This document shows positions 2,969 through 4,585 of a stretch of 64,000 nt of DNA, one piece after another (position 1 is the stretch's first letter; every line of letters begins with the position of its first letter). The translations under genes were made by a program, and so were the position numbers. The notes under the pieces are model-generated. The model was not told the DNA's origin, made no database searches, and worked only from the letters and a program-made list of their open reading frames with translations. This DNA comes from Terriglobales bacterium (GTDB taxonomy: Bacteria > Acidobacteriota > Terriglobia > Terriglobales > Acidobacteriaceae). Location: the NCBI GenBank assembly GCA_035573675.1, contig DATMAB010000012.1, forward strand, positions 62,001 through 126,000, written 5' to 3'.

Positions 2969-2976
2969 CTTACGTG
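2969..2976. repeat. Left target-site duplication of the DUF3800 transposon
   Basis: CTTACGTG lies immediately outside the left inverted repeat. The identical 8-mer, in direct orientation, lies immediately outside the right inverted repeat at 4578-4585. IS1595-family elements are known to duplicate 8 bases of target. Confidence 0.85.
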
Positions 2977-3000
2977 GGCGATAATATACTTGCGGAATCA
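2977..3000 (+). repeat. Left terminal inverted repeat of the element
   Basis: The repeat starts GGCGATAATATACTTG and continues through AATCA. It pairs with the right end at 20 of 24 positions; the differences are at base 4 and bases 17-19. Confidence 0.8.
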
Positions 3001-3103
3001 CGCCCCCCCGGAGAATAATGGCACCAAGGGACGTAGGCGGGGGGGTGCGGTGAACCGCCTTGCGGAACTGATGAGAACACCGCACGATTGCCCTCCGGAG
3101 TGG

Positions 3104-3877
3104 ATGCTTCTGTTAACTGCGTACATAGACGAAAGTGGCTACGGCGACCAGGGCATTATTGTCATGGGTGGCTTCTTTGGCAGAGATGCCGACTGGGGTC
3201 TTTGTGGGCGGGAATGGCGGAGCGCACTAGGCCAACGCAAGGGCCTCCACATGTCTAAACTCCGCTGGAAAAACACCAAACGCATTCAGGCGCTGCTCAA
3301 GAGATTGGGCCCAATACCGCACGAGTGTGGGTTGATTCCAGTGTGGGCGCGGTTGCGTGTTTCCGACTACTCCGACCTCGTTGAGCAAACTACTCTAAGC
3401 AGAAAGCTCCAGCACGGATATTTTGTCGCCGCAGAATTCCTTGGTCTAATTCTCATGAATTACGTCCGGCTGCTGGACGAGAGAATAAAGATCGTCTTTG
3501 AGTACAACGAGCATTTTGACCGGATAATTCCGGTAATCCTTAAGGCTTATTCGATGGCTTTTCCCGCCTTTGTCAATCACGGCGTCCCGTGCTTGGCTGG
3601 GGTCGAGTTCGTGCCGAAAGATTCCACCTGCCTTACGCAGCCCGCCGATTATCTGACGTATGCTCGCCTACAGGAAATGCGCGATCCCAATTCGCTGCGA
3701 ACTAGGTTGTGTTCGCCAATATTGGAACGCCAGCCTGGTGTTCACGTGGATGTAAGCAGGAACGCTATACGGCAACTCATGTCCTCCAAATCACAACAGG
3801 AATTGCGGGAGTTGGCGCGGGAGATGGAGCCCCACATACAGATGCTGAGAAAATTGCACGGCAAACGGAAGAAATGA
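3104..3877 (+). CDS. DUF3800 domain protein
   Basis: A 257-residue protein with the DUF3800 hallmarks: N-terminal AYIDESG (D9, E10), a central VFEYNEHFD segment (E133, E136) and C-terminal QPADYLTYARL (D182). The spacing of conserved acids recalls RNase-H-fold nucleases, but DUF3800 has no proven activity that I can cite, so that is inference. The ATG at 3104 has GGAG four bases upstream and gives the usual short N-terminus; GTG at 3050 (after a GGCGGGGGGG run) and ATG at 3071 are alternatives. It is the first gene of a pair inside the transposon-like unit, and the next gene starts directly after its stop. Base composition is more A/T-rich than its neighbours outside the element. Confidence 0.85.
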   Translation: MLLLTAYIDESGYGDQGIIVMGGFFGRDADWGLCGREWRSALGQRKGLHMSKLRWKNTKRIQALLKRLGPIPHECGLIPVWARLRVSDYSDLVEQTTLSRKLQHGYFVAAEFLGLILMNYVRLLDERIKIVFEYNEHFDRIIPVILKAYSMAFPAFVNHGVPCLAGVEFVPKDSTCLTQPADYLTYARLQEMRDPNSLRTRLCSPILERQPGVHVDVSRNAIRQLMSSKSQQELRELAREMEPHIQMLRKLHGKRKK

Positions 3878-4039
3878 ATGTCGGACCAGTACAAGATGTT
3901 TGACCGAGCGATGCGGCGACTATTGTCTGTATCACACGATGAGATCAGGGCGAAGCTAGACGCAGAGAAGCGGACTAAAGCAGAGAAGCGGAAATCTAAG
4001 ACTTCCGCTTTAGGCCGCGCTTCCCGCGCCAAGCGCTAG
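3878..4039 (+). CDS. Small basic 53-aa protein coupled to DUF3800
   Basis: The ATG follows the DUF3800 stop with no gap (TGAATG), and a GGAAG site sits 10 bases upstream, so the two are probably translated together. The product begins MSDQYKMFDRAMRRLLSVSH, then has a Lys/Arg/Glu-rich helical part (DAEKRTKAEKRKSKTSA) and ends ASRAKR. The pattern F(D)xAMxxLLSVSxxE followed by a charged helix resembles small proteins I associate with DUF3800 genes, from memory only. It could be a partner, an antitoxin-like factor or an RNA/DNA-binding accessory protein. Its stop overlaps the end of the convergent zinc-ribbon gene by 4 bases. Confidence 0.6.
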   Translation: MSDQYKMFDRAMRRLLSVSHDEIRAKLDAEKRTKAEKRKSKTSALGRASRAKR

Positions 4040-4515
4040 AACGGCGTCGTTTCACCAACTTTGCCCGTGAGCTCGGCATAGGTGAGGCGCTTAACTTCTA
4101 CTCCGCTTGGGCCACCCAGCTTCCGCTGAATGACCCAGCCACCCCCCTTCGTGGCGAGGCGAATGCGGTGGAGCATAAACCATGCCGACTTCTGGGTGAC
4201 GCCGATAGCCCTGCCGAGTTCATAGCTGCTGATGCCGTTCTTGCAGTTGACCAGCATCCAGACTGCGGTGAGCCACTTATCCAGGGGGATCGGGGAGTCC
4301 TCAAAGATGGTTCCGACCTTCACACTGAACTGCCGCTTCTTGTGAACGCTCTTGCACTGCCACCTCCGCTGATTCTTGAGGAACACGGCATCAGTCCGAG
4401 CGCAGATGGGACAAATCGGAACGCCGTTCGGCCAGCGCAACCTAGCCATATAGGCCAAGGCGTTGTCGGGGTCTCCGAAGTACCGGATAGCTTCTTGCAG
4501 GGTCTTGGGCTTCAT
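4036..4515 (-). CDS. IS1595-type zinc-ribbon/HTH protein without catalytic domain
   Basis: A 159-residue protein. It has an N-terminal region starting MKPKTLQEAIRYF, a zinc ribbon with C35-x2-C38 and C54, then QFSVKVGTIFEDSPIPLDKW and a helix-turn-helix (SSYELGRAIGVTQKSAWFML, residues about 97-115). All of this is typical of the N-terminal half of IS1595 transposases. In complete enzymes the sequence goes on VEVDETFIGG with the first catalytic Asp. Here it diverges after GVEV (141) and stops 18 residues later. The ATG at 4515 has AGGAG at a good distance. A TTGACA-type -35 lies in the right inverted repeat. It may bind the element ends, or be a truncated relic. Confidence 0.85.
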   Translation of the reverse strand: MKPKTLQEAIRYFGDPDNALAYMARLRWPNGVPICPICARTDAVFLKNQRRWQCKSVHKKRQFSVKVGTIFEDSPIPLDKWLTAVWMLVNCKNGISSYELGRAIGVTQKSAWFMLHRIRLATKGGGWVIQRKLGGPSGVEVKRLTYAELTGKVGETTPF

Positions 4516-4537
4516 GGCCTTGCTCCTAAACAAGGCG

Positions 4538-4564
4538 ATACTACCCTCGCCACTGATTTGTCAA
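4538..4564 (-). promoter_or_regulatory. Promoter of the zinc-ribbon gene, inside the right inverted repeat
   Basis: TTGACA (4559-4564) and TAGTAT (4538-4543) read toward the gene, 15 bases apart, with the -10 box 22 bases before the ATG at 4515. The -35 box is part of the terminal repeat, so binding of the ends by a protein could repress the gene. Confidence 0.45.
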
Positions 4565-4577
4565 GTATATTATTGCC
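4554..4577 (-). repeat. Right terminal inverted repeat of the element
   Basis: Read on the minus strand it starts GGCAATAATATACTTGACAA and ends ATCA. It matches the left end at 20 of 24 positions. Confidence 0.8.
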
Positions 4578-4585
4578 CTTACGTG
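4578..4585. repeat. Right target-site duplication
   Basis: CTTACGTG, identical and in the same orientation as 2969-2976. The remaining stretch to 4747 shows no gene. Confidence 0.85.

Follow-up and report, generated by a model that had tools for sequence, protein, structure and literature searches.

The 64-kb window, by which we mean the whole stretch of DNA that was analysed, contains an element of 1601 bp (2977–4577) in which a DUF3800 gene and a 53-aa gene, here called S, lie beside a gene for a shortened IS1595 transposase. The features of the locus are listed below by position, strand and content.

2969–2976, no strand: left copy of the 8-bp target duplication CTTACGTG, identical to 4578–4585
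2977–3000, + strand: terminal inverted repeat on the cargo side, GGCGATAATATACTTGCGGAATCA; the motif also ends related elements
2990–3877, + strand: DUF3800 open frame (P0001), the cargo; PF12686 at 24 bits, cut-off 21
3878–4039, + strand: small gene S, 53 aa, starting right after the DUF3800 stop
4036–4533, − strand: internally deleted IS1595 transposase (P0002), 165 aa; Zn_ribbon_IS1595 (PF12760) at 41.1 bits, cut-off 25.4
4087–4104, − strand: junction of the in-frame deletion, between ...GPSGVEV and KRLTYAELTGK..., from alignment with full-length relatives
4554–4577, − strand: terminal inverted repeat on the transposase side, reverse complement GGCAATAATATACTTGACAAATCA; pairs with 2977–3000
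4578–4585, no strand: right copy of the target duplication CTTACGTG, identical to the left copy

The inverted ends agree at 20 of their 24 bases, with one mismatch in the outer 16, and are flanked by perfect 8-bp repeats, which confirmed base for base what the sequence-only reading had described. The three genes it named, for DUF3800, the 53-aa protein and a zinc-ribbon IS1595 protein, were likewise present, with PF12686 and PF12760 above their cut-offs. The repeat CTTACGTG occurs only twice on both strands of the window. When the window was scanned for places 300–5000 bp apart with an 8-bp direct repeat outside ends matching at 13/16 or better, the element was the sole pair that combined a perfect repeat with matching inverted ends, and no such pair arose in 20 shuffles of the letters within 200-base blocks. 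IS1595 elements are known to generate 8-bp target duplications, and the outer ends (GGCAATAATATACTTGAC...) as well as 8-bp duplications are common to the related elements described below, in agreement with the earlier reading of a mobile IS1595-type element whose ends and target duplication are genuine. The target duplication suggests, at the sequence level, that the element moved as one unit. No empty site was seen, as distant genomes had only stretches of the flanking genes in common with the window and in the one same-genus assembly seen (G001) contigs end on both sides of the insertion region. The flanking genes are presumably ruvC and an Mpo1-like gene, judged by resemblance, and the G+C content is 55% for the element versus 63% for the window. 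To the left of the element, the motif CAAAATCGTCAAAAGAA lies at 2630–2646 and 2700–2716, with no other plus-strand copy in the window.

The DUF3800 cargo gene

The DUF3800 protein scored above the curated cut-off of PF12686. The first start codon of its frame, TTG at 2990, falls within the inverted end, and the true start is therefore probably further in, at GTG 3050, ATG 3071 or ATG 3104. Residues D47, Q217 and D220 were invariant in all 22 aligned DUF3800 proteins. An AlphaFold2 model based on 22 sequences had a mean pLDDT of 75.4 and a pTM of 0.73, and its only Foldseek match under E 0.001 was RNase HII (1eke, E 5.7e-4), with low TM scores of 0.36 and 0.44. In a second structure comparison, the top 15 rows were all RNase HII, H2 or HIII, the best with a Z score of 10.0 and an rmsd of 3.2 Å over 168 residues. 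From this model the cargo is predicted to be an RNase HII-like nuclease, and its role would most likely be in defence or persistence. A sequence search of solved structures with the DUF3800 protein gave no match at E up to 1, and PADLOC returned no match for P0001 or P0003 and an E value of 0.075 for the 165-aa P0002. DUF3800 is presented as an RNase H-fold nuclease in passages of PMC10910872 and PMC12669027; the DUF3800 nucleases of rare CRISPR loci belong to PF12686, as does the window's protein. According to the same passages, however, those nucleases are linked to TPR domains and class 2 CRISPR effectors, whereas the window's DUF3800 is transposon cargo.

We also looked for structured RNA before the DUF3800 gene. 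DUF3800 families exist in Rfam, as stated in a passage of PMC11701678. Nothing in the window came near a gathering score, only SAM riboswitch and tRNA reached it across 18 loci, and the GC-rich leader of the gene folded no better than shuffles (z −0.04). A plasmid origin of the cargo was rejected, with 0 matches to P0001 among 72,556 plasmid records.

Related elements and the small gene S

Searched with the 165-aa protein, genome_contigs (84,980 species) yielded 478 relatives, and the best 80 were retained. A closed stop-to-stop frame of at least 290 codons was found at 70 of these 80 loci; at 5 the frame ran off the contig, and at the other 5 (L038, L041, L045, L065 and L075) it was closed but below that length. 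Elements were delimited by ends matching at no fewer than 18/26 positions and 12/16 outer ones, GG as the first two bases and a duplication of at least 7/8, which yielded 56 unique elements of 1.6–4.4 kb; 55 of them were tabulated, namely the window's own, L121 and 53 from among the 80 loci. The other 27 loci failed this rule, a number that pools contig ends, decay and differing ends. The duplication was 8/8 in 55 of the 56 elements, a frequency that is partly circular because the duplication was part of the delimiting rule. Among the 56 target duplications, C came first in 36 and G last in 29, with mostly A/T between, a weak target preference. The intact relatives of the window's element form a widespread family.

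DUF3800 was found in 25 of the 55 elements and had no match in the other 30. It was accompanied by S in 23 elements, while S without DUF3800 occurred in 28, DUF3800 without S in 2, and neither gene in 2. The gene set had been regarded as unusual, but all three genes occur in those 23 elements, 21 of which have a transposase frame of at least 290 codons. Nor do the genes always travel together, a point that had been suggested as a check: 28 of the 51 elements with S lack DUF3800, which is replaced there by AIPR, RelA/SpoT, RhuM, GmrSD or unknown genes, and 2 of the 25 with DUF3800 lack S. We searched the 39 non-DUF3800 cargo proteins of at least 140 aa against Pfam (E 0.001) and found AIPR and RelA_SpoT twice each, with single matches to RhuM, Clp protease, AAA_15/21/23, GmrSD_N, a proteasome subunit, PemK, DUF6941 and HTH_3, while at least 27 of the 39 had no Pfam match. 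PADLOC placed AbiU, NsnA, NsnB and several candidate groups among the 25 families listed of 126 matched; these PADLOC and Pfam figures are raw matches from the cargo proteins alone. With the DUF3800 protein as the query, 6 of 299 class genomes matched at E 1e-12, the window's own (G000) included, and the closest relatives in the other five were 35–46% identical over the matched part. Two of these relatives (L208 and L209) sit in delimited elements with a full transposase and S; two others (L210 and L211) showed no ends under the delimiting rule.

S starts directly after the DUF3800 stop in the window and has homologues in 51 of the 55 delimited elements. No Pfam family describes it, a weak match in 1 of 22 being the sole exception. 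A separate search of 121 class genomes found S-like matches in 27, the window's own included, and an IS1595 transposase match lay nearby in 21 of the 30 S-like loci that were fetched. Where S stands as a separate frame (48 elements), the closest upstream frame on its strand was cargo in 40, the transposase in 4 and absent in 4; 26 of those 40 cargo frames overlapped S, 9 ended 0–30 bp before it and 5 farther away, figures that depend on the chosen start codon. The transposase and S overlapped by exactly 4 bp in 29 of 44 convergent cases, as they do in the window's element. DUF3800 and S form one fused frame in L004, L016 and L040, suggesting that S and its cargo partner work jointly.

The internally deleted transposase

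The 165-aa frame is convergent to S, and the two stops overlap with 4 bp shared. Its product consists of the zinc ribbon, a helix-turn-helix region and the last ~18 residues of the full transposase, with the remaining tail reading KRLTYAELTGKVGETTPF; some 160 codons, covering the catalytic DDE domain, are missing in frame. PF12762, the IS1595 DDE domain, was not above cut-off when this product was searched for domains, and NF033547 reached 42.8 bits over residues 80–129 only, under its cut-off of 75, whereas three full-length relatives scored 129–140 bits for PF12762 and 177–180 bits for NF033547. The protein had been taken for the DNA-binding half of a transposase, which is right in that the DDE domain is absent and the zinc ribbon present, but not for the C-terminus, whose last ~18 residues are retained. 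Nor is it naturally DDE-less, since alignment with full-length relatives revealed an internal-deletion derivative. Because the DDE domain is absent, the window's element is a non-autonomous IS1595 derivative and not a full member of the family.

Such a shortened form with a retained tail is seldom seen. The tail of the 165-aa protein, to residue 157 or beyond, was matched by 67 of the 80 loci, and only one of the 80, L038, combined it with a short transposase. There the in-frame deletion is similar, not identical, with the same N-terminal part and tail and another junction; the ends of L038 lack a matching duplication. The joined C-terminal part served as query against 396 phylum genomes, with at most 14 candidates scored per genome at an E limit of 1e-15, and the full join was found in the window's own genome only. 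The truncation is a different one in L121 (G013), whose element has an 8/8 duplication and whose 164-aa transposase lacks PF12762; many other short transposases had their remainder in a second frame or were located at contig ends.

The genome of the window (99% complete, 28 contigs) offered no helper, as the whole of it had 0 matches to PF12762; the only match to the 165-aa protein there was the protein itself. A second element in this genome (L118 1635–3815, G000:C20:139134–141314) has the duplication GTTAGGGG and ends matching at 21/26, and contains a DUF3800 gene of its own, additional open frames and, of the transposase, only an N-terminal stub (MMKPKPLQEAIRCYCPACLG...). It also has an extra internal end-like copy in direct orientation, with 2 mismatches, at G000:C20:140048–140063, as if part of the element had been duplicated or nested. 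Genome G007 gave 14 matches resembling the 165-aa protein, and a 1487-bp element in it (L240) holds DUF3800 and S between ends matching at 23/26, with a 7/8 duplication; no transposase was found in L240. DUF3800 units without a working transposase thus recur.

Transporter IS (tIS) with passenger genes are described in passages of PMC11891212, which cites Siguier et al. 2009 for them and gives ISNha5 of the IS1595 family as an example, and in PMC7986276. The window's element resembles the IS1595 tIS in its zinc ribbon, 8-bp duplication, GG-starting ends and cargo beside the transposase, and differs in the deleted DDE domain and in a cargo of DUF3800 with a small gene directly behind. It is best read as a variant of these already known passenger-carrying elements, and our literature search found no paper naming both DUF3800 and IS1595. 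The nearest transposase is that of L002 (Acidobacteriales bacterium LS_FP_2_bin.54), the same as in G005, which belongs to the window's family; the host is accordingly probably an acidobacterium. Transposase, S and DUF3800 have the same order and orientation in L002 and G005 as in the window, the transposase part is 79% and 81% identical to the window's, respectively, and the first 25 bp of the transposase-side end of L002 are identical to those of the window's element. In contrast, the transposase of L002 is full-length with PF12762, its target duplication is its own (GAAGGTAA), and the DUF3800 of L002 and G005 is 17% identical to the window's.

We consider it highly probable that the window's element is a non-autonomous derivative of a passenger-carrying (transporter-IS) element of the IS1595 family, which last moved in trans and is now stranded. 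The ancestral order would have been end, transposase, S, DUF3800, end, with the DDE domain lost afterwards, and a full-length relative would have acted in trans on the intact ends to bring about the last move of the unit, which would now stay in place unless a helper enters. DUF3800 would be cargo and not transposase, in a slot that is occupied by other, sometimes defence-like, genes in sister elements. What is left of the transposase, the zinc-ribbon/HTH part, may still recognise the ends, in which case it could compete passively. Neither the own genome nor the matches listed of 300 genomes contained a further copy of this very version, so that movement after the deletion is only presumed; the duplication could also predate the deletion, the DDE domain having been lost in place.

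The shortened transposase might instead be a kept regulator that binds the ends and represses or titrates transposition, or controls the promoter of the cargo, close to the opposite end, which we regard as unlikely. The window's protein and L038 have in-frame deletions with different junctions that leave the same N-terminal part and tail, with the zinc ribbon above cut-off in both, and a frame-keeping deletion, as in L038, would also be expected under selection for the remaining protein. Furthermore, comparison with L002 over 157 codons, some 15 of which are misaligned tail, gave a dN of 0.25 against a dS of 1.9, and the terminal branches of the window's transposase and of L002 in the transposase tree are equal (0.21 each). 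However, dS is near saturation and dN/dS mostly reflects the time before the deletion, and the short form with its tail is rare, being confined to the window among the 396 phylum genomes (at most 14 candidates scored in each) and to L038, with its unmatched flanks, among the 80 loci. It is very improbable that the transposase is split, with the RNase H-fold DUF3800 supplying the catalysis missing from the zinc-ribbon/HTH protein and the element being autonomous. The DDE domain has an RNase H-type fold, so that the lost domain and the predicted fold of DUF3800 are of one general type, and both coding sequences lie inside one element. Against this, DUF3800 and S accompany a full-length transposase frame in 21 elements, 30 of the 55 elements have no DUF3800 match, and the nearest solved folds are those of RNase HII and not of transposases. 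DUF3800 is also found in CRISPR loci, according to the passages of PMC10910872 and PMC12669027 cited above. Unrelated genes caught between fortuitous repeats, by chance or misassembly, would fit the single copy in the own genome but can be practically dismissed, since the pair is the only one of its kind in the window, the shuffles gave none, and identical layout and ends occur in dozens of contigs from other genomes.

Exchange of cargo between elements

Small IS elements are known to carry passenger genes. In a tree of 53 transposases, which includes one very long branch (L043), the DUF3800 label changed 14 times, against a mean of 17.7 for shuffled labels, and 29 of 500 shuffles were as low; the label thus changes often, slightly clustered and not quite random. 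Close pairs of elements showed how the two arms behave. L003 and L009, which come from one MAG on two contigs, share 89% identity across their first 1128 bp, reaching into S; past the break within S the DNA is unrelated until the last 27 bp (96% identical), and the cargo proteins had no significant match to each other (E 0.31). Similarly, L042 and L060 are 84% identical over ~1180 bp and identical in the last 25 bp, with unmatched cargo proteins, and L006 (AIPR) and L016 (DUF3800–S fusion) are 74% identical over ~1100 bp with different cargo. L030 and L045, on the other hand, kept their cargo, with DUF3800 proteins 59% identical, while L042 and L071 have distantly related cargo (25%, E 7e-14) and L004 and L005 both have DUF3800 (25%, E 1e-8). 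The close pairs therefore give a mixed picture of cargo exchange. At the DNA level, less than 20% of the right arm aligned in each of the 297 pairs of elements whose left arms are homologous; here the close pairs are the informative ones, as distant pairs would show less than 20% anyway.

We compared the DNA of the window's element with 300 genomes of the family, 115 of which, the own included, had a match. Among the matches listed outside the own genome, all start at element position 964 or beyond, where the last part of S and the transposase arm lie, and none covers the DUF3800 gene, which agrees with a modular picture of the window's element. The differences in cargo between sister elements argue that the passenger gene may be dispensable for transposition.

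Taken together, a joint reading that we put forward only tentatively, as less likely to hold than to fail, is that these IS1595 elements serve as a cassette platform. A constant arm, made of one end, the transposase and the 3' part of S, would be joined to an exchangeable arm comprising the start of S, one or few cargo genes and the 25-bp end. Recombination inside S and at the far end would bring about the exchange, and S would serve both as the swap point and as the coupling tail of the cargo operon, which it overlaps, adjoins or is fused to. The slot would gather defence-like genes, and non-autonomous versions like the window's would spread cargo in trans. Pairs with near-identical transposase arms, unrelated cargo and visible break points may make capture and exchange readable from sequence, and DUF3800 nucleases are now tied to mobile elements and to the small protein S, with which they are fused in three elements.
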